Shown here in pieces: positions 1 through 29,752 of a stretch of DNA of 31,967 nt. The notes beneath the pieces are model-generated. The model saw nothing but the letters and a program-made list of their open reading frames with translations. It was not told where the DNA came from and searched no databases. This DNA comes from a virus. A program made the position numbers and the translations under genes. Positions within the stretch are counted from its first letter, which is position 1; each line of letters begins with the position of its first letter. The DNA lies in the IMG/VR virus record IMGVR_UViG_3300004097_000031, positions 1-31,967 of that record; one strand, given 5' to 3'.

Positions 1-1115
1 TATCCAGAGCTAACGTCATTACGACTACCACTCATCAGCATATATTCATGTGGAACATGTTCCACTTCCCAACAACCTTTAGGTTTAAGGACACTTGCTA
101 AGTTAACCATTACCATCAGTGATGACTTGTACATATTACAACTATGTTCCCACATCTTATCAACGTGCAATTTAGTTAATAAGTCTATAACAGGCGCTTC
201 TTCTTTATGTAAAACTAAAGAGAAACCACCATCCGATGTCATCTTACCTAATAGTTCAATATCATCTTTAGACTTGTTATGGTCACCTAAGAAGTAGTGT
301 GTGTATTTCTCACCATCGATAAGTGTAGCAGGTCTATTCAAGTCAGACATCTGATACGCCCACTTCTGCTGTAGCATTGTAGGGATAGGTTTTTCAGGGT
401 CCCAGTATCCAGTTTCATGTATTGAAGTAAGGATCCATTTATTACCGACCACGTCATTGACAGAACCTACCGAAGCAAGCGCAGCGTTTCTATCAGATAT
501 CGTGTTTCCGAATGGAGAGGTGTTTGGACCACCGTCTTCGAACAACTTGGTGTCTTTACCGCCTCTCGTAACTTCGACTTCAAATAATCCTTCACGCGCT
601 TCCAAGAGTGCATCCACTTCCTCCCATAACTTCCTATCATTAATATCCGTCCCATCACGTTTAAGCCACTCGTTGGCTTTCCATCGTTTTAGCCCACTGT
701 TTAAACCTACATGTAAGTATTTGTCATCGGTTAGGATTAACGTGTTCTTACACTCAGAGTATTCAAGTAGTGCCAGTAATGTTTTAACAATGGCTGTAGT
801 AGCGAGTACAGTGCCACAGCTAATGAGACCATCCACTAACGTAATGTCAGTACCGTCCTTAACCACTGTTCCCTCTTTAGCTTTAACTTTAAGACCTAGT
901 CCTGAATATTCAGGATCATACTCTTTATCTTTCTGTTCGGCACCAGACAACTTCTTAGCATAGCCTCTAGGCGTTACCTGAACAGGCACTCTAGCATAAC
1001 GCGTACTTTCTAATGTGTCAAAGCAGATTGCGTGTATACCGCCACCAGTGCCGCCATGCGGACGATGTTCAATATTTGCACTACTTATGTAGGCAACACA
1101 GTATTCTCGTTTCAT
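1..1115 (-). CDS. RNase HI-fold protein, probably catalytically degenerate (3' end outside window)
   Basis: The frame is open from the ATG at 1115 to the window edge (371 codons read without a stop), so the C-terminus is missing. Residues about 5-215 resemble RNase HI: a first strand followed by a GGTGGG turn, a helix with AIVKTLLALLE, the strand ILTDDKY, a long WKANEWLKRDG...LWEEVDALLE segment that matches the RNase HI handle and following helix, and a last helix SDRNAALA. By eye only the acid equivalent to E. coli D70 (TDD) is kept; the positions of D10, E48 and D134 appear to be S, L/A and A. This suggests a binding or structural role rather than hydrolysis. About 150 further residues look like an additional domain I do not recognise. 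The ATG overlaps the stop of the upstream exonuclease gene (ATGA), so the two are probably translationally coupled. Confidence 0.7.
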   Translation of the reverse strand, partial: MKREYCVAYISSANIEHRPHGGTGGGIHAICFDTLESTRYARVPVQVTPRGYAKKLSGAEQKDKEYDPEYSGLGLKVKAKEGTVVKDGTDITLVDGLISCGTVLATTAIVKTLLALLEYSECKNTLILTDDKYLHVGLNSGLKRWKANEWLKRDGTDINDRKLWEEVDALLEAREGLFEVEVTRGGKDTKLFEDGGPNTSPFGNTISDRNAALASVGSVNDVVGNKWILTSIHETGYWDPEKPIPTMLQQKWAYQMSDLNRPATLIDGEKYTHYFLGDHNKSKDDIELLGKMTSDGGFSLVLHKEEAPVIDLLTKLHVDKMWEHSCNMYKSSLMVMVNLASVLKPKGCWEVEHVPHEYMLMSGSRNDVSSG

Positions 1116-2056
1116 TTTTCACTACCCTTTTCTATCGGCGTGTGATTGATTGTTATCGGAGCCGTATCTGTAGAACTAGCATCAATGTGTGACGCTTTGA
1201 CTTCTTTAACAACTTTTCCCAATTGGTCAAAGACTTCTTTAACTTCACCGTGTGAACTGTTGATAGATTCGGCCACGCCTAACTTGTACTCAGGCTCAAA
1301 CGCACGACCAGCTCGCATCTTGTTATAAACAGCCATGTAATCTACTGTGTATTCTTCAAGCGGTTTAGCAGCTTCGGACCATGACTTAACCATCTCCATA
1401 GTACCGTCATAACCCAATAGACGAAAACAGTGAAGTATGTGATACATACGCGCAGTCTCATACCCTTCCCAAGCGGCATCGAACACTGCAACATGGTGCA
1501 ATGGCTCAGGACCTTTCCACCAACGCTGTACTTCATTTTCACTAGCAGGCGGAATTCCTAACGCACTAATCACACGCTCAACCGTTCTATGTGAGTCTAA
1601 ATTACGTGCAGGCATTCTGTAGTTTATCCCAGCATCCTTTAACGCATCACGTAGTATAACGTAATCGAAATCGGGACCACGCATAGGAACAACAGTAACA
1701 CCATTACGTGGATTCTCATTCATATACTTTGCAAATTGCTGCATACCGTCTTTGAACTTAGTCGTACCGTTCCATGTTAAGTCATATGCCTGCTGTGATG
1801 GAAACGCATTTCCCGGCTTTCTTGTATTCCACCAATCGACTGTTCGCTCGCAGACAGTTCGATTACCTTGCTCAGGATCGTTAGGATCGAAGTCAATGCG
1901 CCAAGTGGCAATAACTTTTAGTGTGTGGTTATCATAAAGCACGGCACCAATGGCAAGAATGTATGAACTAGGAACAACGTCTTTAGTTTCAATATCTAAA
2001 CCTAATGTATATCGTGGGATTTCTGGAACTATTGATAGTACTGACATTTCTTCCAT
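1112..2056 (-). CDS. DEDDh 3'-5' exonuclease (Rv2179c/DexA-like)
   Basis: This is a 314-residue protein with an exonuclease fold. The first motif is GLDIET (D21, E23), the second lies in GPDFDYVILRDAL, and the third is HHVAVFDA, an H-x4-D pattern typical of DEDDh enzymes. The pattern of strands and the WWN...P segment after motif I recall the Rv2179c-like 3'-5' exoribonuclease family and T4 DexA. It probably degrades single-stranded nucleic acid during phage replication or host nucleic-acid turnover. An ATG at 2107 gives a longer form, but the ATG at 2056 has AAAGGTAA just upstream, while the earlier one has no clear Shine-Dalgarno, so I choose 2056. The stop overlaps the next gene (RNase H-fold) by 4 nt. 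The terminator at 2124-2160 lies upstream, so a promoter in the short gap between is expected. Confidence 0.85.
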   Translation of the reverse strand: MEEMSVLSIVPEIPRYTLGLDIETKDVVPSSYILAIGAVLYDNHTLKVIATWRIDFDPNDPEQGNRTVCERTVDWWNTRKPGNAFPSQQAYDLTWNGTTKFKDGMQQFAKYMNENPRNGVTVVPMRGPDFDYVILRDALKDAGINYRMPARNLDSHRTVERVISALGIPPASENEVQRWWKGPEPLHHVAVFDAAWEGYETARMYHILHCFRLLGYDGTMEMVKSWSEAAKPLEEYTVDYMAVYNKMRAGRAFEPEYKLGVAESINSSHGEVKEVFDQLGKVVKEVKASHIDASSTDTAPITINHTPIEKGSEK

Positions 2057-2123
2057 TTTGTTACCTTTATTAGTAAGTGTGTACTTGTATATGATATATA
2101 TCTCCATTATTTTTTAATAGTAA

Positions 2124-2163: not shown

Positions 2164-2637
2164 CTAATAGGCACAAAGCCGCTTCTGAACTTCTTCAATA
2201 GCCGCTTCTGAATCTACCCTGTCTTGATACTGTTGTTTTAGCACCTTTATGTAATTGACCAACTCCCACTCATACGCGTCCGAGTCATTTAAGGCGCTAT
2301 TCTCCGGCTCAAACTCTGGAAGAGGTAGCATAGGTTCCCGCAATACCAATTTACAGACAGGCTTCTCAATAGATGGAACCCAGCCACGAGTCTCTGCATA
2401 GTTGTTCAGCATAATCACATTCACGAACGTATAATTAAGATACCAGTTATAGTCGTCCACGAATTGGTAGAACTCCTCGTTATCTACGTAGGGGTTTACA
2501 TAGGCCCTTGGCGATGGCGGAGGCTGAACATCCTTTAACATCCCATTACCACGCACAGGAAGCTTCGGCGGCGGCGGGTGCATGAACGCACAGCCTTGTA
2601 ATAGTAACATGGTTAGTATTAAAACTTTTATCATCAT
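2164..2637 (-). CDS. Probable outer-membrane spanin subunit (Rz1-like lipoprotein)
   Basis: The 157-residue product starts with a short hydrophobic signal (residues 3-14) ending in the lipobox LLQGC, so Cys16 would be the lipidated first residue of the mature protein. The mature N-terminus is proline rich (PPPPK, then PPPSP), as is usual in Rz1-type o-spanins. It lies 8 nt downstream of a membrane protein with an i-spanin layout, with GTGGAG as Shine-Dalgarno. The two products would meet across the periplasm and fuse inner and outer membranes at the end of lysis. At about 142 mature residues it is much longer than classical Rz1, so it may carry an additional periplasmic domain. Another phage lipoprotein, for example one involved in superinfection exclusion, is the main alternative. 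Two adjacent ATG codons exist (2637 and 2634). Confidence 0.65.
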   Translation of the reverse strand: MMIKVLILTMLLLQGCAFMHPPPPKLPVRGNGMLKDVQPPPSPRAYVNPYVDNEEFYQFVDDYNWYLNYTFVNVIMLNNYAETRGWVPSIEKPVCKLVLREPMLPLPEFEPENSALNDSDAYEWELVNYIKVLKQQYQDRVDSEAAIEEVQKRLCAY

Positions 2638-2645
2638 TTACTCCA

Positions 2646-3086
2646 CTAATTATATTTGTTGATGGCCTCGGTCATCTTCTTCCTGAGAGCTGACTTGTCC
2701 ACAGTACGTCTAACTCTCTCTATAACTACGGGAGTCCGCTGTCCATTGTATGTTACACGTGGCGGTATTTTAGGTTTCTCTACGGGTATCCCCGTAGGTA
2801 CACACGCAACCGACAAGAGAACATTTTTCTCATCGAGTGTCTTCTGAACCTCTTCTAACCTCACTTCCTTTTTAGCTAGCTCTAATTGAACTTCCATCTT
2901 CTCTGTATGTAAAGCAAAGAAGCTTTGAGAAGCGTAACCTAAAAGAGCCAGCAACACTAGTATAGTCAGAATACAAATTCGCTCAACTGGCGATGTTCTG
3001 CTATTATCCGTTCCGGGTACGATTACTTCTTTAACGTACTCTAACACCAACGGCATGAATAGTTTTATCCAAGCATATAACGTCAT
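2646..3086 (-). CDS. Probable inner-membrane spanin subunit (Rz-like)
   Basis: The 146-residue protein has a hydrophobic/amphipathic N-terminal stretch (residues 5-24), one clear membrane segment (about 37-58, ICILTILVLLALLGYASQ) and then a charged coiled coil (about 61-92, rich in E, K, L and V). The rest is basic and proline-containing. A single N-terminal membrane anchor with a periplasmic coiled coil is the i-spanin layout, and the next gene encodes a proline-rich lipoprotein, which fits a two-component spanin. The Shine-Dalgarno AAGGTGA precedes the ATG at 3086, and a TTATATAAGG element lies directly upstream. The membrane segment is not at the extreme N-terminus as in lambda Rz, so the assignment comes from architecture and neighbourhood only. 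Confidence 0.65.
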   Translation of the reverse strand: MTLYAWIKLFMPLVLEYVKEVIVPGTDNSRTSPVERICILTILVLLALLGYASQSFFALHTEKMEVQLELAKKEVRLEEVQKTLDEKNVLLSVACVPTGIPVEKPKIPPRVTYNGQRTPVVIERVRRTVDKSALRKKMTEAINKYN

Positions 3087-4446: not shown

Positions 4447-5097
4447 ATGGCAGACGCCCGCATCAGATTTTTGATAACCCCTCCGGTACACACTACTGGG
4501 GTGTATTCTTTATATAGTCCGTGGACTGTGGCCCTTACGGATGTTTATCGTTGTCATGCGATACGTTCTTTTGATGAGCTAATACGTAAAGGTATAGATG
4601 TCTATGCCGATTATTATGAACCGATGGGTGTGTCGGAATCTATATACAAAGAAGACCTAGCATTAGGCGCTTCTATAGTTACGCTCATATCTGCCGTTAA
4701 TGAATATCTATACGTACCTAACACATACATTGAATCATATCCGGGAATGTCAGGTATAAAGTACTCACGTAAATGTGTTTTACTTGACTTAGGCCCTCTC
4801 CCAGATAACTTCAGCATTACTTACTTACTTGATGATATACAGTCGTTAATAAAGAAAGGTGCAGGTGTAGTGGAAGAACAAGTTAATATAAGAATGGCTA
4901 CGATTCCAATGACGACTACTGTCACGCACGAAGACCACATTCAATTGGAGGCGACAAGACGTGCCGCAATACAACTGCATGTGCCTTTAGCAGTTCAGTT
5001 GTCAGAACAGACAGCTAGAGCTGACGCACTTCAGGAACAAAACGATTTACTGCTAAACGTAATATCTGAACATCCTGAACTGTTCACAGAACTGTAG
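4447..5097 (+). CDS. Unrecognised protein coupled to the preceding gene
   Basis: This 216-residue protein is not recognised. Its ATG lies one base after the stop of the preceding gene, with GGAAGAGG 10-17 nt upstream inside that gene, so translational coupling is likely. The first 130 residues are rich in Tyr and hydrophobic residues (MADARIRFLITPPVHTTGVY start). The last 50 residues (LEATRRAAIQLHVPLAVQLS onward) look helical and could form a short coiled coil with QTARADALQEQNDLL. That layout would suit a small tail or baseplate assembly protein, but nothing diagnostic is visible. Transcription of the pair would end at the bidirectional hairpin immediately downstream. Confidence 0.78.
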   Translation: MADARIRFLITPPVHTTGVYSLYSPWTVALTDVYRCHAIRSFDELIRKGIDVYADYYEPMGVSESIYKEDLALGASIVTLISAVNEYLYVPNTYIESYPGMSGIKYSRKCVLLDLGPLPDNFSITYLLDDIQSLIKKGAGVVEEQVNIRMATIPMTTTVTHEDHIQLEATRRAAIQLHVPLAVQLSEQTARADALQEQNDLLLNVISEHPELFTEL

Positions 5098-5100
5098 CGA

Positions 5101-5140
5101 CAAAAAAAAGAGGGGAGCCGAGGCTCCTCTTTTTTATTTG
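5101..5140. terminator. Bidirectional terminator between converging genes
   Basis: The stem AGGGGAGC/GCTCCTCT (5111-5130, loop CGAG) is flanked by A8 on the left and T6ATTTG on the right, so it can terminate both the plus-strand pair ending at 5097 and the minus-strand transglycosylase gene ending at 5154. On the minus strand the T-run is followed by GTCGC. Confidence 0.88.
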
Positions 5141-5153
5141 CTATTATATAGAA

Positions 5154-6035
5154 CTACACTAACCAACGTCTGTCAGTTAACGGTGTAACTGTCTTATAGG
5201 ACTGTCCACCATGATGCTTATGACCGTTTATAAGTAAGTCGTCAGTCATTGGCAAATCTGCAATAGTTAGCGGTATATTAACTTTAGCCAACACTTGCTC
5301 TACGAAATCAGGCCCCCATTTACGAAGCTCCTCATCCGCCGCACATACCCAGTATTCAATAGCAGCATCAGCATACTCAGTTAGGAACGCATCCATGTGT
5401 GAATTGTAGGCAGTTAGTGCGCGGTCAGAATACTTACCATAGGCACGTAATACTTTATCATTGATGTAGTCTTTAAACTCATTTACAGTTCTTGATTTAC
5501 CATCCTTATAAAAGATAGAAGTATTGTATCGAGCAAGTCTAGGGTAAATGTCTGCAATAGCTAAATCGTGGTCGACTGACTCTAATGCGGCAACACGACG
5601 CGGCGCTATAAAATGTGCCATGTAAAGATCAATAAGGGTAGGCTCTCTATCCATCTTCTTTAACAACACACGGTAATTCTCCTTTAAATACTCAGCACCC
5701 ATTAAAGTGTTAGCCCATGCATCTGTTCTACCTACACGTCTAGTTAACCCGTACTGACTTCCATAATTACCTAATGTAACTCTCCATGTACGACTAGTGA
5801 ATTGAAACAGTCCAGTTGCACTAGTACCTTTAGCACTAACACTAGATCTAAAAGAAGATTCCAATGCTGCCATCGCCGCCAGATCTCTAACGTCAACACC
5901 CGTTAGTCTTGCGGCTTCGACGAATGTGTCCTCATGTGCAGCCCAAGATGCCTCAGCCTGTTCAGAATACGTTACTGCTATTAATGTAAGGCATAACGCG
6001 ATAGTTAAAAGTATTACTTTAGTGAATGTGTTCAT
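5154..6035 (-). CDS. Exported lytic transglycosylase (SLT/goose-type lysozyme fold)
   Basis: The 293-residue protein begins with a Sec-type signal peptide: a Lys at position 6, a hydrophobic core (residues 7-22) and an AEA site with likely cleavage after Ala29. The next 120 residues match the soluble lytic transglycosylase domain, with the catalytic Glu in MAALESSFRSS (E59) and the SATGLFQFTSRTW motif (73-85). It would cleave the MurNAc-GlcNAc bond in the periplasm. The C-terminal 130 residues are of unknown role. The signal core is rich in Ile, Leu and Val, unlike the weakly hydrophobic anchors of SAR endolysins, so ordinary export is more likely. It stands alone as a transcription unit between a candidate TTATATAAGAG promoter and a bidirectional terminator. 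It may be a second lysis enzyme beside the GH108 muramidase, or a virion-associated enzyme. Confidence 0.85.
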   Translation of the reverse strand: MNTFTKVILLTIALCLTLIAVTYSEQAEASWAAHEDTFVEAARLTGVDVRDLAAMAALESSFRSSVSAKGTSATGLFQFTSRTWRVTLGNYGSQYGLTRRVGRTDAWANTLMGAEYLKENYRVLLKKMDREPTLIDLYMAHFIAPRRVAALESVDHDLAIADIYPRLARYNTSIFYKDGKSRTVNEFKDYINDKVLRAYGKYSDRALTAYNSHMDAFLTEYADAAIEYWVCAADEELRKWGPDFVEQVLAKVNIPLTIADLPMTDDLLINGHKHHGGQSYKTVTPLTDRRWLV

Positions 6036-6112: not shown

Positions 6113-6496
6113 TTAAGGGTTAACGTTTCGGATTTTACAGTCTGACAGGTATGATTGTCGTATCTGACATTTAACACCGCGATGGGTGGTTATTATTTCA
6201 GGACGTGGTCGCATGTCACCCAACTCAATATTGGAGTACATGAAACACTTCTTTCTTTTATCCCATTGTGCAGTCTTCATAAAGGACAGGTCGTCCAGAG
6301 GCAGTGCAGTAATGACATTACAGCGTTTAGCATATCCCTGAATTACCATCGCAGTCTGGCCCATTAGTTGAACCGTCTTAGTGAGGTTATGGAAAGCCAA
6401 CTCATCTAATATATCTGCTGCGTTGTATGATGTTTTACGTTTACGTGCGGGCTTGTCATCCAACGACGCCGCAACGATTTTAGCAACTGTAGACAT
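6113..6496 (-). CDS. Unrecognised small basic protein
   Basis: This 127-residue protein is not recognised. It has a basic patch near the N-terminus (KPARKRKTSYN), a helical middle part (DILDELAFHNLTKTVQLMGQ) and a C-terminal region with RGVKCQIRQSYLSDCKIRN containing two cysteines. No signal or membrane segment is visible. It is the last gene of the minus-strand block that includes the Nudix and macrodomain genes; its ATG lies 4 nt past the Nudix stop, with only a weak GGGAT as Shine-Dalgarno, so expression may depend on coupling. A nucleic-acid-binding role would fit the basic composition but is speculative. Confidence 0.7.
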   Translation of the reverse strand: MSTVAKIVAASLDDKPARKRKTSYNAADILDELAFHNLTKTVQLMGQTAMVIQGYAKRCNVITALPLDDLSFMKTAQWDKRKKCFMYSNIELGDMRPRPEIITTHRGVKCQIRQSYLSDCKIRNVNP

Positions 6497-6500
6497 GGTT

Positions 6501-7049
6501 CTATAATCCCAACGCTGTAGTTAACATATGACTTATACGGATATCGCTATCCAATATCTCATCCAAGGTCATCCATTTAATCCAATGGTGCTTTAACGGT
6601 TCTGGATTAGATAAGTCACCTAATTGTTGTGTGGTCTCATAGACGAACTCACATACATTACCGTAAGCGGGGTACGAACGGTTAGAAACGTCCATTAATG
6701 TTAGAGTGGATTTGTCAAGCTTGTAGTCCAGCTCTTCTGCCACTTCACGACACAATGCTGTTAGCGTATCCTCACCCATGTCAACTTTCCCAGACGGTAT
6801 AGTCAACATATTACCCTTAACATGATATTGGATACAGTACTTCTCACCATCACGCGCTATAAGTCCGACTGTTCGAACATCGGCATGATAGTTAATAGCA
6901 CCCACATGCTCGCGAGCTTTACCAACAGTCATTATACGGTCGTTACTATTATACCCATCCTGTCCATTTTCAGCCCCTACCGCAATATCAAATATGAAGA
7001 TATCCTTTATTCTTCGTGTACCGTTTGTTGTCATTTTACTATTTTTCAT
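6501..7049 (-). CDS. Nudix hydrolase
   Basis: The 182-residue protein carries a Nudix box: G87-x5-E93-x7-R101-E-V-A-E105-E106-L-D, which fits GX5EX7REUXEEXGU except that the last Gly is Asp. The preceding IPSGKVDMGEDT and the strands VGLIARDGEKYCIQYHV are typical of the fold. It would hydrolyse a nucleoside diphosphate linked to another group (ADP-ribose, NADH, capped RNA, dNTP or similar), releasing a phosphate-containing half with Mg2+ help. Substrate cannot be told from the motif. It is two genes downstream of a macrodomain protein, which makes ADP-ribose an attractive guess. The ATG at 7049 overlaps the upstream gene by 11 nt and has AGAAAG as Shine-Dalgarno; an ATG five codons in (7034) is possible. 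The N-terminal 55 residues are additional to the core fold. Confidence 0.88.
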   Translation of the reverse strand: MKNSKMTTNGTRRIKDIFIFDIAVGAENGQDGYNSNDRIMTVGKAREHVGAINYHADVRTVGLIARDGEKYCIQYHVKGNMLTIPSGKVDMGEDTLTALCREVAEELDYKLDKSTLTLMDVSNRSYPAYGNVCEFVYETTQQLGDLSNPEPLKHHWIKWMTLDEILDSDIRISHMLTTALGL

Positions 7050-7659
7050 TTCTTTCTAATTCCTGCATTATGTTGTAGGCAGCGATGCTGCTGCTAAAGA
7101 TGTAAAGTCCATTAGACGGTAACGTCTTAACGGGTGCAATTGTGGAACTGCGGTCTGGTGTTAATAACACGTTTTCAGCAAATAGCTTATCCATCACTTC
7201 CGCCTTGCGTAGGAGCGTCCGAAACTCCTCAAGGTTCACCAAGCGGCGGATAAGTAATGTATCCACTAAACTACTAAACACATCACTGTCAACTCGCAGA
7301 CCTTTCATAATCCCGAACTTTGAGATGTCTCCACCCGTAGTGTAGGGACCGCCCTGTGATCTGATGATCGCACCTAAACTGTCGAGTATGATAGTACTGT
7401 CCACATCGCTATTCACAATCAGCCATTCGCGCAACACCATATAGATGTTCTTATGTGCTGTCGACGTATCGGATGGTCTTTCCGGACAGACCTTATTTAT
7501 AAGGCGCATCGTTTGAATACGTCTAACTAACGCCGCCACAGGTCTAAGCGGTGCTGCTAATGCAGTTGTTCCCTTAATGACATCTAGTGCGGAATCGTGC
7601 GCGCTCGACATCCAGAGGAGCGACATACGGCTTAAGAAAACTCTTATATTTACATTCAT
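7039..7659 (-). CDS. Unrecognised protein in the macrodomain/Nudix operon
   Basis: This 206-residue protein is not recognised. It is preceded by a good Shine-Dalgarno (AAGGAAG) and sits between the macrodomain gene and the Nudix gene, overlapping the latter by 11 nt, so the three are almost certainly co-expressed. The sequence is mostly helical with basic clusters (residues 38-60, RPVAALVRRIQTMRLINK) and no signal peptide, membrane span or metal-binding motif. An alternative start (MSLLWM, codon 12) cannot be excluded. Its position next to two enzymes that may act on ADP-ribose is the only functional hint. Confidence 0.75.
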   Translation of the reverse strand: MNVNIRVFLSRMSLLWMSSAHDSALDVIKGTTALAAPLRPVAALVRRIQTMRLINKVCPERPSDTSTAHKNIYMVLREWLIVNSDVDSTIILDSLGAIIRSQGGPYTTGGDISKFGIMKGLRVDSDVFSSLVDTLLIRRLVNLEEFRTLLRKAEVMDKLFAENVLLTPDRSSTIAPVKTLPSNGLYIFSSSIAAYNIMQELERNEK

Positions 7660-7672
7660 GATACTTCCTTTT

Positions 7673-8134
7673 TTATTTGTAAAGTACTACAGGTATGTCC
7701 ATTGACTCTAATGTCTTCACTAGAAAGTCCCATACCTCTTTTTTGTCATTACCGCGTAACCAGCCGTTAGACATACCGGGAGGAACAAAAGCTAGAGACG
7801 TTATCCCTAGTCTTTCATAAATCTCCCCAAGCCGCTTTAGATTATCCATCACCATTTCTTTGGGGGATGGGTTTCTCCACAGTATCTTTGTAGGGAATAG
7901 TAATGCCTGCTTACCCTCGCCAAATTTAACAGTTGTTAACGAGTTAGGTGATAACAGTCCAAGATTACATGCCTTTCTATATTTAACATACACCTCCGGA
8001 AGATCGTCACGCATTGATTTAGCAACACCTGCACCTGCTACACCTTCCAAGTTTATAGTAATAGTTATTGTTTGCTCAGGCGCATTGACTATATTACCGT
8101 CCGGCAGTTCAGACCGCTCTTTGATCGTTAACAT
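7673..8134 (-). CDS. DarG-type macrodomain protein (putative ADP-ribosyl hydrolase)
   Basis: The 153-residue protein is a single macrodomain. Residues 26-38 (TINLEGVAGAGVA) match the ADP-ribose-binding loop, written VN..GVMGKGLA in relatives. FPTKILWRNPS (80-90) matches the FPTK..WR segment characteristic of the DarG/ALC1-like branch, whose lysine (here K83) is reported as important in DarG catalysis. VPPGMSNGWL (117-126) corresponds to the second loop, PPLGCGNGGL. DarG proteins remove ADP-ribose placed on thymidines of DNA by the toxin DarT, and DarTG systems act as phage defence. I see no DarT-like gene nearby, so a phage-borne orphan would plausibly counter host ADP-ribosylation; that is inference. 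The start overlaps the upstream stop by one base (TAATG). Confidence 0.85.
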   Translation of the reverse strand: MLTIKERSELPDGNIVNAPEQTITITINLEGVAGAGVAKSMRDDLPEVYVKYRKACNLGLLSPNSLTTVKFGEGKQALLFPTKILWRNPSPKEMVMDNLKRLGEIYERLGITSLAFVPPGMSNGWLRGNDKKEVWDFLVKTLESMDIPVVLYK

Positions 8135-8658
8135 TATTTAGCCCCACATGTGTTAATGTATTTCAATATAAGCCCGTCATTGTCACGTAGTAATCCGAAC
8201 TGTAATAAATGATCCATTATTACAAAGGACTTACGGTAGCTAACCATCGTAGGATATTCGATAACGGCATTTATGTGTAACCTTACACTTAGACGGCAAA
8301 AGGGCGTCTTGTCATGCGCAATAGCTCTACATATTTGCGTACTTTCACTGTTAGTGTGTCGGTAATGGATCGTATCAACGGCCTCGCTAAGTATTTGTCG
8401 CCTAACAGGTACATTCCCAGTGAACCACTCAGAGATGAACGTAGCGAACGCTATGGCGTTCCTGTAGGTGTCTTCATTAACCGGACCCTCGTCATACATC
8501 AGTGCCTTAACTACGATCGGATCGATAACTACTAGCGGGGCGCTTTCGTTTACCTGCCGCGATATTAAACAGCGTATCGCCGCCCACCCGTACTTCCTTG
8601 TAGCCTTTTGACCCAGTGCGTTCATTATTGCTTTCAACATACGTAAGTAGTAATACAT
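8134..8658 (-). CDS. Unrecognised protein upstream of the macrodomain gene
   Basis: This 174-residue protein is not recognised. It starts at 8658 with GGAG upstream; the next in-frame Met is seven codons in. The sequence looks mainly alpha-helical with several aromatic and arginine residues (KATRKYGWAAIRCLISRQ, RLSVRLHINAVIEYP) and a few scattered cysteines with no metal-binding spacing. No signal or membrane segment is evident. It heads the block of minus-strand genes leading to the macrodomain and Nudix genes and its stop overlaps the macrodomain start, so it is likely co-translated with it. Confidence 0.75.
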   Translation of the reverse strand: MYYYLRMLKAIMNALGQKATRKYGWAAIRCLISRQVNESAPLVVIDPIVVKALMYDEGPVNEDTYRNAIAFATFISEWFTGNVPVRRQILSEAVDTIHYRHTNSESTQICRAIAHDKTPFCRLSVRLHINAVIEYPTMVSYRKSFVIMDHLLQFGLLRDNDGLILKYINTCGAK

Positions 8659-8714: not shown

Positions 8715-11204
8715 TTAACTAATTAGTACATTCTTGTTAAAGCTAGCAGGACCTTCAATACCGTCATTGTCCAAAACGATCAAGTCCGCATGTGTTAACT
8801 TAAAATGCGTCGTTGCATCATGAGATATCATAAAGCATTGTGAATGGTGCTGTTTACCAATCAGATCTTTAATAAAGTTAATAGCCTCGTCACGATGTCC
8901 CGTATCAAATGCTGCTAATGTCTCATCAATAAGTAATGGGTAACTAGCTAAGTCAAGCGCACGGTATACCGCTAAGACAAATACAAAGTCGATTACTTCT
9001 TTCTGCGCACTAGAGCCATGACTAACGTCAGCATTGGGACGCGACTTATCTTTAGCCCAGAACGGAAATTTGTAATCCATCTCACCACCATCAATAGCAC
9101 ATGGTAGTATCTTCATCTCATAACCCCAGATATGATTAATATATCCGGTCATTAAGTCAGTAATGCGTGTAATGCCCTCGTAGATGTATTTAGCAAGAAT
9201 ACCTTCGTCAGGAGACATTGACTTAACTAATTTCTTAGAGGCTTCAAAACGTCGCTCATAAGTGGCCAGCTCATCTTCCTGATATTGCAACTTAATACGA
9301 GAAGCTTCCATATCGTCGTAGCGTACCTTAGCGACGGTGAGCAGCTCCCACAGCATCGCTTTATGATCCTGCAGTGCATCATACTTCATATTGACAGACA
9401 TGATGTCAGAGACTTGATTGACCTTACGTGCTTGCATATCTAACCGTGTGTTGTATGATTCCATCGCTGTAGCAACGTATTCCATCTGATTAGCGGTGTT
9501 AAGCATTGAGTTATATAAGTCTTCATCCTTACGTATCTCAGAGATAGCTAACTCAGTAGCGCTGTGCATTGACTTCAACATGCCAGTATCTTCAGCCTGC
9601 GTGGCAAGCGCTAGCGTAAGTTCGTTAGTTATAGAAACAATAGACTGTTTGGCATTAACGATTTGTACGGCACGTGCTAACTCTGTCTGGTACTGATTAA
9701 TAAGACCAAGATGCATCGATGGCGAGTCCGTAAATGCATTCTTAGCTTTTAATGCGTCGAATAGTACACTCACGGCGGGATTAACCCGATAGTTTCTAGC
9801 AGTCAGCGCAATGTTGTTAGCAGCAACAGCAAACGTAGTATACAGTTCAATGTTTTCTTCTAATGCTTTAAGTTTCGCATCCTGCGCTGTTAATAAATCA
9901 AACACCTCAAGACTTCTAGCCTTAGCACGCTCAATCTCTACATCACTCACGCCCGGTTTGAAGTCAGTACTACACTTAGGACAGGTAACTTCACACACAT
10001 TACTCATATGTTTTAGGTCTGCAACTAAAGTAGCGTCATGATTAACCAATTTCTGCTTATATGCCTGACATTTACCAGCCTCCGCTCTAAAAGCATCTAA
10101 TCTAGCCTTAGGATCGTCCACCGGATGGTCTGTCGTTAACGCACTCATAGATTCCGTAAGTGTGTTACAGAAATTACTAGAGTCTTCTAACGCATGGCAC
10201 AGGGCGTTTAAATCACAGTCTAATAAAGTAGGGAAAGCAAACATAAGTTTACTCTCTTCGGCCACAAAAGTAGTTAGGTTATCGACCTGCCCTTGTAATT
10301 CATTAACATCAACGCTGTTAACATCGTTAGCCTTACTAATACGCTTCTCTAAGTCAGCAAGTTTGGCTAACTGTCCCTCACTTGCCGCAGTAAGGTAGGA
10401 TAACTTAGACTCTAACTCACGTGAATTGTATTTCTCATGGTCGGTAGGTAACCATGTCTGTAGTTTAATGATTTCTTTTGATAGATTCTCTAATGTATTG
10501 AGTTCGTTATCAAGCGTCGTGTCGTTAACACTACGGTCTTTTGTTATAGGCGTTAGCAACTGCTCTACTTTACTAATATCGTCCTGTAGAACGCCGACAC
10601 GGAGCTTCAGCGCCTCACGATCGTCTTCATTCTCCAACACCTGAGGTCGTAACTCACCTATAGTGCGTTTAAGTGATTTAATGACGCCACTAATGTCGCG
10701 ATTATGTTCACGAGATTTCTTATAAAAGTTTAAAGCGTATGTTAAATCAGATTCGGACAGTAAGCTAAACCACTTTCTACGTTCAGGCGTTTTCATCTCG
10801 GTTAACTTAACTTGCCCAGTAAACAACTCATGTAGATCTTTGTCGTATTTGAATATATCTTTAACAAACTTATTATAGACGCTCGGGTTGGCATTCTCAC
10901 ACATGTACTCGCCAGTATCGACGTTAAGGAAGCTACACTTTAGTGCTTTACCAGTATATGTGCAAGTAAGTAAGTAGGTAGTACCGCTATGTTCGCAAGT
11001 TAACTCTTTGAAGCCACCCTCACTAAAATCAGTCTTACTCGGCGCTAACGGACTTAATTGAGACATTAGACGACTCTTACCAGAACCATTACGTCCCAAG
11101 ATAAGATTGATAGACTCTTTAATCTCAAACTCAAACATCCCGATATTGTTTAACCACATGCCTAGGAATTTAGACAGTCTAATCTTTTTATAAGTCAAGT
11201 ACAT
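8715..11204 (-). CDS. sbcC: SbcC/Rad50-like recombination ATPase (T4 gp46 type)
   Basis: This 829-residue SMC-like ATPase has a Walker A motif GRNGSGKS at residues 37-44, two long coiled-coil arms, and a CPKC zinc hook (C408, C411) near the middle. The ABC signature lies in DVSHGSSAQKE (about 725) and the Walker B in YPLLIDETLAAFD (about 750), followed by the switch histidine in MISHD. With an SbcD/Mre11 (gp47) nuclease partner, not in this window, it would process DNA ends for recombination-dependent replication and may help degrade host DNA. It is clearly longer than T4 gp46 (about 560 residues), mainly because of the coiled coils. TAGGAGC precedes the ATG, 8 nt after a small zinc-ribbon gene, so the two are likely co-transcribed. 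Confidence 0.93.
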   Translation of the reverse strand: MYLTYKKIRLSKFLGMWLNNIGMFEFEIKESINLILGRNGSGKSRLMSQLSPLAPSKTDFSEGGFKELTCEHSGTTYLLTCTYTGKALKCSFLNVDTGEYMCENANPSVYNKFVKDIFKYDKDLHELFTGQVKLTEMKTPERRKWFSLLSESDLTYALNFYKKSREHNRDISGVIKSLKRTIGELRPQVLENEDDREALKLRVGVLQDDISKVEQLLTPITKDRSVNDTTLDNELNTLENLSKEIIKLQTWLPTDHEKYNSRELESKLSYLTAASEGQLAKLADLEKRISKANDVNSVDVNELQGQVDNLTTFVAEESKLMFAFPTLLDCDLNALCHALEDSSNFCNTLTESMSALTTDHPVDDPKARLDAFRAEAGKCQAYKQKLVNHDATLVADLKHMSNVCEVTCPKCSTDFKPGVSDVEIERAKARSLEVFDLLTAQDAKLKALEENIELYTTFAVAANNIALTARNYRVNPAVSVLFDALKAKNAFTDSPSMHLGLINQYQTELARAVQIVNAKQSIVSITNELTLALATQAEDTGMLKSMHSATELAISEIRKDEDLYNSMLNTANQMEYVATAMESYNTRLDMQARKVNQVSDIMSVNMKYDALQDHKAMLWELLTVAKVRYDDMEASRIKLQYQEDELATYERRFEASKKLVKSMSPDEGILAKYIYEGITRITDLMTGYINHIWGYEMKILPCAIDGGEMDYKFPFWAKDKSRPNADVSHGSSAQKEVIDFVFVLAVYRALDLASYPLLIDETLAAFDTGHRDEAINFIKDLIGKQHHSQCFMISHDATTHFKLTHADLIVLDNDGIEGPASFNKNVLIS

Positions 11205-13532: not shown

Positions 13533-14759
13533 GCGACTAAAGTAATTGTAAATAGTCATATGTGATTTACGAAGAGGATTAGTTCCAACACGCGCATCAT
13601 TAATGCGTGCTAGCTTTTCCCACCCCATAGTTTCATTCACAAGGTTAGGTATTTCTTTCTCTGTCGTTTTCAATGCCCACTGCCCACATTCCCACACTGG
13701 CCAGTAATCAACAGCATTACCTAAATCGTTACGTAACGCACCAAGACGCGCAGTATCAGGAATAATGTAACTGCCAGCCATTGCAGCGTAACTAACCGCA
13801 GCGGTGTCCACAGCCATCTCAGCGTTATCAATCAACACCAAGAAACTATACTTCGATGTTAAGTAAGCAACCACATTAGCTTCATCCAAGAAACCATCCA
13901 CACTCACGCCATTGTTAATCTGATCTAATTCCATAAAGGAAAGATCCAATACTTCCATAGACCGAGTAATGCGATTCAATAGATCATAGTTCCCTAAACT
14001 AATAGAGATCATCGTATCCCCTATCTGCTTAACCATCCCATCTAATAAATGTAAATGCCCACCAATCACAATACCCACCGTCTTACCAGTAATACTCATC
14101 GTAGTATCAATCAGTAATGTATCATACCAAGTACTCTCAGTATTCACCGTGTTAATCATGTTAGCAGTAATAGGTACTTGCGTTATCTTCCCAACGTTCT
14201 CAAAGTTTAAGAACCCAGCATTCATCTCACCTGCTTTACTAACAGGCACAGCACAGTTCTCTACACGCACACCATATTCTTGATACTTACTCGTAAAGTA
14301 ATAACCATTAAAACTAAACAAACAATAATCAGTTATTAATCTACTATCCAGTTCTTCAAAGGTAAGAATGATATCATCAAAGTCACTCTCTACTGATTGT
14401 GAGGGATGGTAACCAGACTTAGCACCTTGCACTATTGTTTTATGATAATTAACAGGAACGTAGTTAACATAAGAAAAGGATAGCGTAGGAAGCCCGTCAG
14501 TTAACGCTAAGGCCGTATTGCCTAATAACCCTAGCCATTGCCCTACCGTCCAGTCACGATTGCTTAGCGCGCTCTCATAAGCGTATAAGTCCACCGTCTT
14601 CTTTTCCCCATAGAAATCCAGCACCCCAACTTCTATCTTCTTATAAGCAGAAAACAACGCTTCCATCGTCATCTCACCCACGTCAACCTCGCTCCATCTA
14701 TTCGTGCTCTTCTCTTTTACGATAGCATTCCCGCTCTCTAGAGTATACGACCCAGCCAT
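13524..14759 (-). CDS. Unrecognised protein, probably a virion component
   Basis: I do not recognise this 411-residue protein. AGGAGAG precedes the ATG and the gene is alone on its strand between the spike gene and the fibre cluster. The sequence is beta-rich with many aromatic residues (SFSYVNYVPVNYHKTIVQGA, CLFSFNGYYFTSKYQEYGVR) and a hydrophobic stretch VGIVIGGHLHLLDGMVK that is too polar for a membrane span. There is no signal peptide or catalytic motif. Placement between spike and fibres suggests a baseplate or tail role, for instance a fibre connector; this rests on location only. Confidence 0.75.
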   Translation of the reverse strand: MAGSYTLESGNAIVKEKSTNRWSEVDVGEMTMEALFSAYKKIEVGVLDFYGEKKTVDLYAYESALSNRDWTVGQWLGLLGNTALALTDGLPTLSFSYVNYVPVNYHKTIVQGAKSGYHPSQSVESDFDDIILTFEELDSRLITDYCLFSFNGYYFTSKYQEYGVRVENCAVPVSKAGEMNAGFLNFENVGKITQVPITANMINTVNTESTWYDTLLIDTTMSITGKTVGIVIGGHLHLLDGMVKQIGDTMISISLGNYDLLNRITRSMEVLDLSFMELDQINNGVSVDGFLDEANVVAYLTSKYSFLVLIDNAEMAVDTAAVSYAAMAGSYIIPDTARLGALRNDLGNAVDYWPVWECGQWALKTTEKEIPNLVNETMGWEKLARINDARVGTNPLRKSHMTIYNYFSRDK

Positions 14760-14862
14760 GTTCTCTCTCCTAACATTAAGACGTCATACTATGCCTAAGC
14801 AGGTAATAAATTTATCCCCTGTAATAGACCTAATTATAAACCTCCTAATAAGGGAATTTCTC

Positions 14863-17800
14863 ATGACTCAGTTCACCTATCCATTTGACCCTAACGCAGC
14901 ACTAGCAGCTAACGTTATCAGTAATGAACAACACCCCCTCCCAGATACAACCCAAGGGTACCGTACTCTCTTTCCAACCTATGCTCCTTTCTATGATAAT
15001 AAGACGTTTAGTATTAAGGTAGATGATACACCATTAGCAATAGGGATTGATTACTATTTAACGCATAAGTACTTTAAAGCAGTAGAGAGAACAGGTAAGT
15101 TGGTTTATGGGGGTATTTGGTTTATTAATCCAAACTTAGTAGGGAATGTAAAGATAACGTATCATACCTTAGGGGGGAATACAGCAGTAACGGAGGAAAG
15201 AAAGACCGCTTACTTAACCGATCAATCAGCACCCCAATCTTCGTCTTGGGAAGAGGTACAAGATACTGAAGTGTATTTCCCAGCAGTGGATGTACAATTT
15301 GATAGAACTGAAAAGAAAGGTGAGGAGGATGTGACTTCGGTTGTTTCCGAAATTGCCACCAGTATAAGAGAGAAAGATAGAACACAGGAAGATATTTATT
15401 TATTACTCGATGAGTGGTTTTTAACCCTTGAAGAAGTGGTAGATGCTTCCCCTATTTCATCACACAAAAATAATGAATTAAATCCTCATCAAAATAATTG
15501 GTACAATGCCGGAGCCCTAGCTGAAACTGGCATCACTGTCGATGCGTCTACCGCGTACGGAAAGTCATTAGCTGAGCTAACATCGCATATAAACGCCCTA
15601 GGACTCACCCAGAGCGATTTAAACCAATATGTTAAGCTATCAGGCGGCAACACCCTGTTAGGGGACGTACGGTTGGCTGACGGCGCAATGGCGATACGCT
15701 TCACTGATAACGATCTCCCGGTAGCGCGCATTAACATGTCCTCTGGGAATATCCACTTAGACGTGGTAGGTGGTGGGATCATTCAGGCAGATAAGCACGC
15801 CAACAAAGCGGGCGTGATGGCAGAACTCAAAGCGGGTCCTATTACCTTACAAGTGGTCTCTACTGCAGATAGTCAAGATGATAACAGTTTACTGATTAAT
15901 GGTAAGGCGATTATGCATGAGGGTAATATTGCAGATCACCTATCAGAAGAAGCCAGTGGGTATATTCAAATTGCGGTAGAAGACACGAGTACATTAACGA
16001 TCTCTGGAAAAGGGATGGGGTATAATCCGTTAGAGGCTGATGCGGTATTAAAGCAGGCATCGGGTGGCGTTAATGGGGTCGCTAAGGGCAGTACTGCTAC
16101 TAACTCGTCTAGTGACACGGTAGCGGCGTTCTCAGAGGCGTCTAAGCAGGTGAATGATGAAGTGGCTGGCAAGGTAGACAGTGGATTGAAGATCAACAAT
16201 AAAGCGATTGATAATGATATCACGATTGTGCCTGCAGATATTGGGTTGGCTGCGGTAACGAATGTCGCTGATGCAGATATGCCTGTGACGGACCAACACC
16301 TGACTGCGTTAGAGGGTAAAGCCTTAGTAGGGCATACCCATGACTTCTCTGAAATGCAAGTACCTGATGCGACTGAGAGCGTGTATGGTATCTCTATCCT
16401 GAGTAAGGACTTAACGAAAGATGATGAGGCGTTAGCGTTCTCTGAAGTCAAATCGTACCATGAGAAAATAGAGACGTTAGAAGAGGAAGCGGGTTCTGCA
16501 GTTCCTGCTGATGCGATAGACTTAACCCAGTATGGTGGGAACAACTACTTACCTATTCCTGTTCTAGGGAGCTATGAAGCGTCTGGGAGCCAATCACAAC
16601 AACAAGGCTTAGGGGTATTGGTAGAACGTAATGGCGATCTTGTTATATTACGTAATGGGGAAGATGTTAATACGCGTGGTGTGTTCTATGCTTACGGGAC
16701 ATTAGACAGTGACGGTAAAATAGTGAGTCTTACTGCGACTGCAACACGATACAATCCGTCGTTTCTTCCATCTGGGGCCTTTGTAGAGTCTGTGGGGCGT
16801 AATACCGACGATGTGATGCTAAGTCTCGTCCGTAAAGCAGACGATTCATTAGTGGTGTATGCTACCTTACTGTACAATACCATGGATGATACACGCCATC
16901 TTGGTTGTGAGATAGTAGCTGACCTACGTACTGGTGTGAATGACTTCCATACTCATCAGATATTCGTACATGATGAAACAGTGTATATTCTAACGACGGT
17001 GAAGAATACATCCACTCCATTCCAAGTTGAATTACGCAGTGCACCCATTAGTGCATTTAAGTTAGATGAAGTCGTTACCTTTACTGAACTCGCTATTAGT
17101 GGTGTAGATCTATACGGTGATGCGGTTGCAGCAACACCTAATTACCCGTTAATTAGTAGTAATAATAAATGGTACAGTACTGAGGCGGAAGATAAACCTT
17201 TCATATTAGTAGATGAAGATTATACCTCTGCAAATGCTTATCACAGCAGTCGCCAGCAGACCGGGTTAGTTGTTCAAGCTAATCAGATGCGTGTTACCGT
17301 CGGGATGTCAACCGTAGGGTGGTACTCTACAGGCGTGCATACTGGACATACTGCATTTAGCTTTGTTATTGATTTAGATACGTTAGTACTAACGCCTGAT
17401 GATAACTGTAGACCGCCTATGGTGTTCTCAGCCGATCACAAACAGTCAGGTGAGTTATATCGTAATCCATCCTACCTAGTATCTGCAACAGGAAGTGGTT
17501 CGTGGGGTAGTAACTATTATACGGGCGGTTTTAGCTTCACTGCTCACGGATCACCCAATTTCGCCTATCGCTTAATTTCATGGGAAGATACTTCAGGAAG
17601 TGACTTTGACAATGCAGACATTAACCGCGGTGACATGAAATATATTGATGTTACAACAGTTGAAGGAAACTTCGGGAGTGTGGTTGAGGGGATTCCCTAT
17701 GCGGTAAGTATACAGCCGGGTAAGGTCATTAAGTTCTTACAACGGTCAGGTGCCGGAGCGGTAAAAGTTGCATACAGTGACGAGTCAACGTACGGTACTG

Positions 17801-20403: not shown

Positions 20404-20420
20404 TACAGGAGACATTAAAC

Positions 20421-23400
20421 ATGTCAATACAAGTCACATATCCACATGACCCATCAGCGGTCATGGATGTGTGCCTTATTAAGGACGAGAACCACGTTAT
20501 TATTACCAATGATAATTCATACCGTGTAATCGTACCTGAACTGGCACCATTCTTTAAACTGAATTTAGTGATAGTGCATGCTATTTCAGGATTGGTCTTA
20601 TCTGAAGGCACCGACTACAACTTAGGCTACAAGTTAATAGATGCCGCTAAGATTGCTAACCGCGAACTCTTTGGCGCTATTGTTATTACTAACCCTAACC
20701 TAAAAGGGGAGTTTGTCCTAGAGTATAGAACGGTAGGTGGAGATTACGTAGGTATTCAGAGCGCTGTATTAAAGCATCTGGCTGACTTACTAACAGATCC
20801 AGCTAAGGTCTACTTTGAGAACATACTAGATAGACCCTCGTACAGTACACCTGTAAAGCATGAACAACATTATTCAGACTTTGCTAATAAAGAGAGTCTA
20901 GCGGCGAGTATTGATGAGATATCAGCAGCATTAGACTCAGCAGCAGCTGAATCGTCAGCGACAGCACTGGACGATATAAAGGGACGTATAAAAGCCCTTG
21001 ATAATTACCTAACGTCTGTTCGTTATGAATTACATATCAAAGATACGACTAATCCGCACAATGAAACAGCAAAGCAGGTAGGCGCATTAGAACTTAACGC
21101 AGACGCAGTTGACGCATTCAGTGTATATGGCCGTAGTTTAGTAGAGTTAGCAGAATACATCAATAGTCGTGGTGTTACACAGACAGATATTGACGCTTAT
21201 CTACATTCGCACTCTAGCAGTGACTATTCTGGAGACCTTATATTAAAAGACGGAAAATCAGTCTTACGTAATGAAGCAGGTACTACTGAGATAGACCTCG
21301 CTAACGGAAATATAACAATTAAGTCTGAGTTGATGTCAGAGTTGTTTGTAGACTCTACCGTCAGTAATGCAAATGAGCGTATTGTCCTACAGTCAGGTCT
21401 AAACGTCTTAGAGATTATCTCTTCAGGCACTAACGGGTTTGGTACAAGTACTTTACGCTATAATGGGCATGTAGTATTAGATGCAAATAATGCAGCAGGC
21501 TTATTAGCGGGAATTACATCAGGTGGGATGGTTGTTGTTACTAATGACACCAGTACTATTAAGTGGTCAGGGCAAGGAACGGAAGCTTCGCCATTAGAAG
21601 CTACGCTAACGCTCCCTGAGGCGACTACTACTGAAGTAGGTGGTGTTAAGTTATCAAACACTAGAACTGCGTCAGGGACATCTACAGCGCCAACCTCTTA
21701 TGTTATCAATGAGATCAGAAAAGACCTCAATAACAAACTAGACGGCAGCATTAAAGTAAATGGCCACACATTAGACAGTAATCCCGTATTAGATAAAGAT
21801 GACCTTTACCTAGATAAGGTAGATAATACATCAGATGCTAATAAACCTATTTCTGCAGAACAGGAAGCGCTGATTGATCTTTACTCTGAAGTGGGACACA
21901 AACATACCGGGGACGATATAGCTTTCCCAGTAGCCACAGGTGCTGATAAGGGCATTATGCGACTAGCAGATACGTTAGACGACAATGATCTAGAAGGGGC
22001 CGTAGCAACGCCTCTATTACTACAGCAGTTAAATGAAGACATCGTTGATTTAGCAACCCTATCTGCACGCCTCATGCCAAGTGATGTATTAGATGTACGT
22101 TACTGGGAACCTGTTGGTGATGTTGTATGTGCAGGAACCACTATTACGTTCCCTGCAGGTGCATTGCTATATATGCAGCAGGTAGACTATAGTGCAAATA
22201 CTGAATTATCTAATGTAGGTGCCGTATTAGACTTTGCAGCGTTATTCCCAACTAACTATACAAACCAAACGTTTTACATTTACATAGGGGTTGAAGAAGA
22301 CGCTATCATCTATTGGGCAGATCGCAACAAGTTAGTCAACAGTGGCCCACAGATGCATATTGCAACGATAAGGCTATCTAACACTGATATCATGGATATG
22401 TCTAGTGTGAATGGTGGTGTCAATACTTACGAAAGTAATATCGGTGGGATTCTTCAGGTTAAACCTGTGACATCGGTGGGTATCTTTAGAGAACTCGTGG
22501 AACATACAGAAGACGATAACCCACACAGCGGTTCATCACTTAACCTATCCAGTAACACGATAGGATTAGACTTAATGAGCAACTACCGTGCGGTTACTTA
22601 TATGTCAGATGCAAGTCATCAAGGTGTTAAGTACTGGGACATCCTTTCTACGTTCTCACCTGCTAACGCTAAAGCAACTGCTAGCGATATCACGATTAAG
22701 AATGGGTCAGTAGACCTTAACGTCGGCTCACTGTTAGAACTGCCATTAACAAGCGGAACTAACCAACTGGTGTTGTTTAGAAACCCTAACTTTGAGTTCA
22801 ATGATCCAGACCGAGCTATTACCACGGATTTAGGTGAGAAACAACGTTATGTTGAATACAACCTAAATGTGGATAACGCCGCAGTTAGTACGCCAACAGT
22901 AGAGACGTGGGGGATCGTCTTAGGGTCTTATATAGACCCTGTGGGATTGGTCCATGATATCTTGTTCTTACCTAGACGCGTTAAAGGTGCTTATGTCGGC
23001 TTCTCCCTATTCTACTATATCAACGGAATAGAAGAAGAAGTACTGTTTAATCACGACCCAACGATTACGGGAACGGATGCTAATTTTGTTACACTAACAG
23101 CATCGTTGGAATACACCCCAACCGCAGTCGGGTTTCAATACAGCGCAGTGGTACGTTACCATGCAGTAACTGAAACGCGTACGTTTAGACTAGACCTTGA
23201 TATCGCCAACTCGGAAGCAGTGATTGACTTCTATGCTTACTTAAATACTGACACACAACCTGACATATTAGCATCTAAGACAATATCCATAACATCAGGC
23301 TATGTTAAGAATGTACTATTGTCAGGTACTATCGGTTTCGGTGGGTATGTGACCAGTACAGGAAGTGCAGATACATTCCAAATGACAGTCGATGCACGCA

Positions 23401-23708: not shown

Positions 23709-23716
23709 CAACTAAC

Positions 23717-23736
23717 GGTGGGGGTAATGTCCCACC
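23717..23736 (+). other. Hairpin between fibre 2 and fibre 3
   Basis: GGTGGG and CCCACC form a 6-bp stem with an 8-nt loop in the 61-base gap between the fibre genes. There is no T-run, so it is not a standard terminator. It may slow RNA decay, be a processing site or reduce read-through. Confidence 0.4.
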
Positions 23737-23769
23737 TAACCCCAACATACAAACTTAGAGGTTAATCTG

Positions 23770-29313: not shown

Positions 29314-29315
29314 TT

Positions 29316-29705
29316 ATGTTTTATGGATTTAAGAAATCGACAGGCAAATGTGTTTGGTCGATTGATGTTAAACCGACACAACCTGATGGTGTTGTTATCC
29401 TAGAGTCTGAGATAGACTACGATATTGGCAAGGTGTGTTTAGGCGGCACTGAAGACGCACCTACCATTGATGCAGTCATCATGTCCGAAGAAGAGAAGCT
29501 AGCTAATGAGAAGTCAAAGCGTGACTACTTGTTAAATATCGCAACCGCTAAAGTGGGTGTGTTAGCTGACGTTGTCGAGTTCGCTAACACTGAAGAGAGT
29601 GAAGCCAATTTAGAACAGTGGCGCAAGTACCGCGTAGAGTTATACCGCCTAGATTTCACAGATCTAGATAACATTAAATGGCCAACTGAGCCAGCGGCTT
29701 ATTAA
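29316..29705 (+). CDS. Tail fibre assembly chaperone (Tfa / Caudo_TAP-like)
   Basis: The 129-residue protein ends in the pattern typical of Tfa proteins: a helix with EEEKLANEKSKRDYLLNIAT, a second helix EANLEQWRKYRVELYRLD and the tail NIKWPTEPAAY (W..YR..L...D...I.WP..P). Tfa proteins bind the C-terminus of a fibre and promote its folding or trimerisation. The N-terminal 60 residues contain short beta-strands (MFYGFKKSTGKCVWSIDVKP). The ATG is 2 nt after the stop of fibre 3, with GAGG 8 nt upstream inside that gene, so coupling to fibre 3 is expected and that fibre is the likely client. Confidence 0.85.
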   Translation: MFYGFKKSTGKCVWSIDVKPTQPDGVVILESEIDYDIGKVCLGGTEDAPTIDAVIMSEEEKLANEKSKRDYLLNIATAKVGVLADVVEFANTEESEANLEQWRKYRVELYRLDFTDLDNIKWPTEPAAY

Positions 29706-29713
29706 ACAATAAA

Positions 29714-29752
29714 TGGAGGGTGAGTCTGTAGTGGACTCACTTATTTACTATG
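29714..29752 (+). promoter_or_regulatory. Structured ribosome binding site of fibre 4
   Basis: GGAGG (29715-29719) lies 30 nt before the ATG at 29750, too far for normal initiation. The bases between are a perfect hairpin: GTGAGTC (29720-29726), loop TGTAGTG, GACTCAC (29734-29740). Folding it leaves TTATTTACT, a 9-nt spacer, between Shine-Dalgarno and ATG. No other Shine-Dalgarno is near the start, and the start is fixed by homology to the other fibres. Confidence 0.8.

Follow-up and report, generated by a model that had tools for sequence, protein, structure and literature searches.

Does a phage macrodomain that stands without a DarT toxin remove ADP-ribose marks from phage nucleic acid, and is the Nudix hydrolase encoded two genes downstream its partner? 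The question arises from a run of five tightly packed minus-strand genes in a linear virus record of 31,967 bases, which was analysed as a whole and is called the window here. An initial annotation of this DNA had proposed that the macrodomain erases a mark placed by the host, that the Nudix enzyme then acts on the freed ADP-ribose, and that the whole run may form one anti-defence or NAD/ADP-ribose-salvage set. The idea that Macro and Nudix domains of jumbo phages counter ADP-ribose-based defence has already been published (PMC7824862, PMC9503650).

Layout of the five-gene run

The run lies between an SbcC-like gene and a gene for a transglycosylase with an SLT domain (Table 1), and its spacing is as the initial annotation gave it: ORF-A and the macrodomain gene share a TAATG (1-nt overlap), a 13-nt gap separates the macrodomain gene from ORF-C, ORF-C overlaps the Nudix gene by 11 nt, and 4 nt separate the Nudix gene from ORF-E. 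The flanking gaps are 56 nt between the SbcC-like gene and ORF-A, and 77 nt between ORF-E and the transglycosylase gene. The terminator-like hairpin probably marks the end of the minus-strand unit, against the convergent genes. Three of the five genes had been taken as unknown, and indeed no relatives of ORFs A, C and E were found among phage proteins, family libraries and the fetched macrodomain loci; ORF-A also bears no detectable resemblance to the ORFs that occupy its place in the sister phages.

Table 1. Features of the window in and around the five-gene run (positions are those of the window).
Feature	Positions	Strand	Description
DUF7194 gene	4447-5097	+	PF23824, 4.3e-66; convergent; gene that follows in the conserved order
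Terminator-like hairpin	5106-5135	both	T-run on each strand
SLT-domain lytic transglycosylase	5154-6035	-	PF01464, 1.6e-8; downstream anchor of the conserved block
ORF-E	6113-6496	-	127 aa; orphan cargo
Nudix hydrolase, MutT/RppH-like	6501-7049	-	182 aa, N-terminus longer by about 60 residues; lineage-specific cargo
ORF-C	7039-7659	-	206 aa; orphan cargo
DarG-type standalone macrodomain	7673-8134	-	153 aa; N28 and K83 correspond to the catalytic N22 and K80 of T. aquaticus DarG
ORF-A	8134-8658	-	174 aa; orphan, overlaps the macrodomain start via TAATG
SbcC-like gene	8715-11204	-	PHROG 77, 5.6e-79; upstream anchor of the conserved block

The macrodomain and its predicted active site

The macrodomain had been assigned to the DarG type, and the comparisons made here support this. 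It contains the segment FPTKILWR, its best matches among solved structures are DarG macrodomains (5m31, 1.6e-14; 5m3i, 9.2e-14), with those of T. aquaticus and M. tuberculosis ranking ahead of the Thermosipho DarTG protein, and the PADLOC DarG model matches it at 4.9e-24. Pfam searching of the protein gave zero matches, as did a single-sequence scan of viral contigs, which with a macrodomain alignment returned 80 loci. An AlphaFold2 model built from 31 sequences (pLDDT 95.7) was used for a fold search, where DarG takes ranks 1-4 (TM 0.80-0.85 by query length) and human TARG1 ranks 5-12. The predicted fold is thus nearest to DarG and TARG1, as should be the case for hydrolases of the DarG/TARG1 class.

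Concerning the catalytic residues, the window and 177 other aligned loci all have N22, K80, G117 and G121 (T. aquaticus DarG numbering). In the T. aquaticus enzyme K80A is inactivating, K80 being the catalytic lysine, and N22A is the next worst mutation (PMC5179494). The invariance of the Lys and the Asn over 178 loci argues for catalysis and not for binding alone. Relative to DarG, four ligand-site positions have changed in the window: K29, Q34, H82 and G119 are replaced by A, S, L and S, respectively, so the protein may prefer other ligands or substrates than DarG does; K29E and G119E are harmful in the T. aquaticus protein (PMC5179494). Judged by residues and predicted structure, the window macrodomain looks like an active ADP-ribosyl hydrolase of the DarG/TARG1 class with an intact predicted active site, and erasure of a host ADP-ribose mark, the first part of the original proposal, remains plausible; the second part, which concerns the Nudix enzyme, did not hold up (see below).

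Relation to DarTG antitoxins

The macrodomain had also been described as lacking a DarT toxin, and DarT was found neither among the genes of the window nor in 17 related phage records. Bacterial relatives of the macrodomain are mostly of about 215-450 aa and the phage forms mostly of about 150 aa, and DarT accounts for 33 of the 37 suitably placed upstream neighbour genes scanned beside the bacterial relatives. The window protein scores 72.2 bits with the DarG equivalog NF048014, whose cut-off is 250, because the C-terminal half is absent (153 aa versus about 350 aa in total). With no DarT gene and no C-terminal domain, it is ruled out as a DarTG antitoxin, and is at most like the catalytic half of DarG, without the DarT-binding half. 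Such a catalytic half could be useful by itself, since the T. aquaticus macrodomain on its own rescues cells from DarT and its K80A form does not (PMC5179494).

A conserved block and an apparent lineage-specific insertion

The order SbcC-like gene, variable small ORFs, macrodomain, transglycosylase and convergent DUF7194 gene recurs in 19 fetched loci, some of which are duplicates of one phage. Carriers include Vibrio phages pVa-21 and pVp-JHP1101, Erwinia phages Derbicus, Phobos, Wellington and phiEaH2, Salmonella phage SPLA3 and metagenomic contigs. In the macrodomain tree the window groups with pVp-JHP1101 and two further loci (L020 and L021) with an SH-aLRT of 97; the tree is built on few columns, with hardly any bacterial rows and without an outgroup, and therefore does not speak to an origin of the phage forms within DarG antitoxins.

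The distance from the macrodomain gene to the transglycosylase gene is 1,638 nt in the window versus 52-658 nt in the 19 syntenic relatives, and this longer interval holds ORF-C, the Nudix gene and ORF-E, which reads as a lineage-specific insertion.

The Nudix hydrolase

The presence of a Nudix hydrolase is borne out by PF00293 (5.6e-10; 39.8 bits versus a cut-off of 21.1) and by the Nudix box, GKVDMGEDTLTALCREVAEE. Among family models, those for MutT, RppH-like proteins and NTP-pyrophosphatases fit the protein best, each scoring far below its cut-off, and no match to TIGR00052 (NudF/AdpP) or PRK10729 was found. The single-sequence structure model is unusable (pLDDT 33.5), so what can be said about the substrate rests on sequence and not on fold. 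The protein, being MutT/RppH-like and far below the cut-offs for ADP-ribose pyrophosphatases, was rejected as such an enzyme, contrary to the splitting role first given to it; most likely, as far as its sequence tells, it hydrolyses a nucleoside triphosphate or an RNA 5' end, acting independently and not on the product of the macrodomain.

Its nearest phage relatives belong to Vibrio and Photobacterium jumbo phages, for example VP4B, where the Nudix gene lies near those for dihydrofolate reductase and thymidylate synthase, and where a search of 236 kb found no macrodomain. A single-sequence scan of viral contigs with the Nudix protein gave zero matches and the Nudix alignment two loci. No ORF with a Nudix motif was found within about 8 kb of the macrodomain in any of 97 viral macrodomain loci (some loci are shorter than this). 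Since this motif scan had a single outside positive control (VP4B), a Pfam search of whole records was added; it detected Nudix domains in 10 of 31, VP4B included, the nearest to a macrodomain at about 8.4 kb. The window is the sole case, against 97 viral loci, with macrodomain and Nudix genes together. Conservation of the gene neighbourhood had been suggested as a check, and in related phages the two are never found together, the observation named at the outset as speaking against a joint function. The Nudix protein was accordingly rejected as a conserved partner of the macrodomain.

These data bear directly on the model in which the macrodomain frees ADP-ribose and the adjoining Nudix enzyme splits it into AMP and ribose phosphate, within a five-gene anti-defence operon. 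Tight packing into one apparent transcription unit fits this model, as does the same two-step logic having been proposed for jumbo phages (PMC7824862), and the sister phages have an ADP-ribose pyrophosphatase at another site: in pVa-21 and pVp-JHP1101 a 299-aa protein passes TIGR00052 (89.5 versus 79.55 bits) and is similar to ADP-ribose pyrophosphatases of solved structure (down to 9.5e-26). It sits, however, 62-65 kb from the macrodomain gene, so that two-step chemistry may exist in the clade by way of a different Nudix protein. In addition, the DarG reaction, as far as known, is independent of product removal. Given also the neighbourhood counts, the MutT/RppH-like sequence and the VP4B relative, we hold the model to be very unlikely, and a single anti-defence set of five genes is not supported. 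The case calls for caution: adjacent phage genes need not form a pathway, and the Nudix gene, attractive as a partner, is a lineage-specific insertion.

Probable connection to the phage nucleus

A chimallin profile search was positive for pVa-21 (1.9e-92), pVp-JHP1101 (7.6e-92) and one contig (G002); the window, a 32-kb fragment, contains no chimallin gene. Because its sister phages encode chimallin, the window is very likely part of a nucleus-forming jumbo phage, the kind grouped as Chimalliviridae. Macrodomain proteins of such phages are known, since the phage nucleus takes up PhiKZ gp104 and PhiPA3 gp108, which serve as model cargo, gp104 being described as of unknown function (PMC11087766). 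We found that PhiPA3 gp108 matches DarG first among solved structures (5m3i, 1.8e-22), with TARG1 at only 0.017, and that the PADLOC DarG model detects it at 2.2e-38. As the PhiPA3 copy lies outside the gene order of the block, orthology of the window macrodomain to gp104 is likely rather than proven. VP4B has a chimallin match together with its lack of a macrodomain, which indicates that the nuclear lifestyle does not require the macrodomain gene.

When PhiKZ104 is knocked down, less ChmA accumulates while PFU and CFU do not change substantially; the authors expect genes of this kind to help the phage where competition is stronger or where hosts carry other defences (PMC12571901). That this effect is seen in an undefended laboratory host could also mean that the macrodomain is an ADP-ribose binder or reader, or acts on ADP-ribosylated nuclear proteins of the phage itself, with no anti-defence role. 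Import-screen escape mutants that avoided losing gp104 import (PMC11087766) and the changed ligand-site residues of the window protein point the same way, whereas the invariant catalytic Lys and Asn point to an enzyme; this reading appears rather improbable. Searches for phage-encoded ADP-ribosyltransferases covered DarT and KptA.

Substrate and proposed mechanism

A nuclear location would put the enzyme together with phage DNA, and it is chiefly for this reason that we favour a nucleic-acid substrate. The principal competitor is a macrodomain that degrades small ADP-ribose derivatives used by host defences as signals or toxins, candidates being ADP-ribose-1''-phosphate, O-acetyl-ADP-ribose and cyclic or amino-acid-linked ADP-ribose. 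Relatives of the macrodomain are annotated as Appr-1-p processing, and the published proposals on jumbo-phage Macro and Nudix domains prefer small molecules as targets (PMC7824862, PMC9503650). Sequence and predicted fold, however, place the protein with DarG, for which the known substrate is DNA, its bacterial relatives adjoin DarT, and the nuclear import of homologues suits a nucleic acid or a nuclear protein better than a diffusible substrate, so that we judge this alternative unlikely, if still the one to be taken most seriously. Much further down stands clearance of ADP-ribose-1''-phosphate arising from RNA repair by KptA-type 2'-phosphotransferases; the historical Appr-1-p annotation and a suggested RNA-repair role for some phage macrodomains (PMC7824862) favour it, but of the 17 related phage records only that of RAY contains KptA, which the sisters of the window all lack, and this highly improbable option was set aside.

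The reading we favour, to which we give about an even chance, is that the window macrodomain is a standalone hydrolase of the DarG/TARG1 class, belonging to a conserved block of nucleus-forming phages and freeing ADP-ribose from phage nucleic acid, with the Nudix protein, ORF-C and ORF-E as cargo. Under this reading an infected host would free or activate an ADP-ribosyltransferase of the DarT type, which would mark phage nucleic acid and stall replication; the macrodomain, imported into the phage nucleus as gp104 and gp108 are, would bind the ADP-ribose, and Lys83 would break the link and restore the template. The target would be phage DNA (or RNA) that carries marks from ADP-ribosyltransferases of the host, DarT-like or other, and the protein would act as a catalytic half-antitoxin devoid of the DarT-binding half. 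Predicted fold, residues, gene order and the chimallin of the sisters come from the present analysis, import and DarG chemistry are published for relatives, and for the window protein we infer substrate, nuclear location and benefit. Points against the favoured reading are that DarT would somehow have to reach DNA inside the phage nucleus, that the K29, Q34, H82 and G119 changes include two positions at which substitution harms the T. aquaticus enzyme, that VP4B does without a macrodomain, and that the PhiPA3 copy lies in a different gene order.

More tentatively, and with the balance leaning against it, nucleus-forming phages in general may import a DarG-type de-ADP-ribosylase of their own that repairs ADP-ribosylated phage DNA or RNA after the damage, a catalytic counter to DarT-like defences unlike an inhibitor that binds DarT. 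No demonstrated catalytic DarG-type phage counter was found in the open-licence papers searched. The window macrodomain belongs to a known family, and the useful step is to tie a family of nuclear cargo to DarG with its catalytic residues fully conserved. PhiKZ gp104 is a standard cargo in phage-nucleus work; its placement with DarG makes the function of at least one nuclear cargo directly and cheaply testable, and opens a test of whether jumbo phages answer nucleic-acid ADP-ribosylation by repair.

Comparison with known systems

Closest to the window macrodomain are the Appr-1-p/macrodomain genes of pVa-21 and pVp-JHP1101, with 52-54% identity and the same block and order; they differ in having no Nudix gene beside the macrodomain and an unlinked ADP-ribose pyrophosphatase instead. 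PhiKZ gp104 and PhiPA3 gp108 are likewise standalone DarG-type macrodomains, of about 160 aa, from the same kind of phage and with the same invariant catalytic residues, whereas gp108 has 25% identity to the window protein and different gene neighbours, and nuclear import has been demonstrated for the Pseudomonas proteins only (PMC11087766). The Nudix protein shares its box with that of VP4B, at about 41% identity over the aligned part, but differs from it and from MutT/RppH-type enzymes in its N-terminal extension and gene neighbours. With the DarG antitoxin the macrodomain shares the fold, the FPTK..W segment and the catalytic Lys and Asn, and it departs from it in the missing C-terminal half, the missing DarT neighbour and the four changed ligand-site residues. 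Finally, AdfB and other phage anti-DarT factors resemble the window macrodomain in being phage-encoded and in acting, or possibly acting, against DarT; AdfB, however, is an inhibitor of 77 aa with a sequence unlike DarG that binds DarT (PMC11481870), whereas the macrodomain would target the modification.

Macrodomain distribution and its surroundings

The macrodomain is not universal among nucleus-forming phages, since Vibrio phage VP4B (locus L005, record NC_042136) matches the chimallin profile (5.8e-14), yet no macrodomain was found in this record. In the sister phages pVa-21 and pVp-JHP1101 the macrodomain gene, annotated as Appr-1-p, has been assigned too late a start in both. Their NudF-type ADP-ribose pyrophosphatase gene lies 62-65 kb away from the macrodomain, and in both phages its product carries about 100 extra residues at the N-terminus.

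Features of the window and of the sister-phage loci (L-numbers, fetched loci)
Feature	Location	Strand	Details
Rv2179c-like 3'-5' exoribonuclease	window 1112-2107	-	PF16473, 9.3e-15
Lipoprotein-like ORF and adjoining small membrane-protein-like ORF	window 2164-3086	-	157 and 146 aa
Four large tail-fibre-like proteins, tandem paralogues	window 14704-31291	+	1899, 1095, 1847, 513 aa
Glycosyl hydrolase 108 protein	window 31316-31951	+	PF05838, 5.7e-15
Appr-1-p as annotated, pVa-21	L002:7208-7465
Appr-1-p as annotated, pVp-JHP1101	L001:7118-7465
Full-homology frame, pVa-21	L002:6989-7465		158 aa, start at 6989
Full-homology frame, pVp-JHP1101	L001:6989-7465		158 aa, start at 6989
NudF-type ADP-ribose pyrophosphatase, pVa-21	L181:1069-1968
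NudF-type ADP-ribose pyrophosphatase, pVp-JHP1101	L182:1069-1968

Concerning the other window genes, the glycosyl hydrolase 108 protein is possibly an endolysin, and the lipoprotein-like and membrane-protein-like ORFs, which gave zero matches in a Pfam search, possibly form an outer/inner spanin pair. The tail-fibre-like paralogues share stretches of 24-44% identity and, near the N-terminus, a YP[FHY]D motif common to all four.

Between the SbcC-like gene and the macrodomain, Erwinia and Salmonella phages (loci L004, L010, L011, L012 and L019) present a gap of 2.5-4.5 kb filled with variable small ORFs, including acetyltransferases in some of them. This gap looks like a cargo hot spot of interest for anti-defence gene screens.
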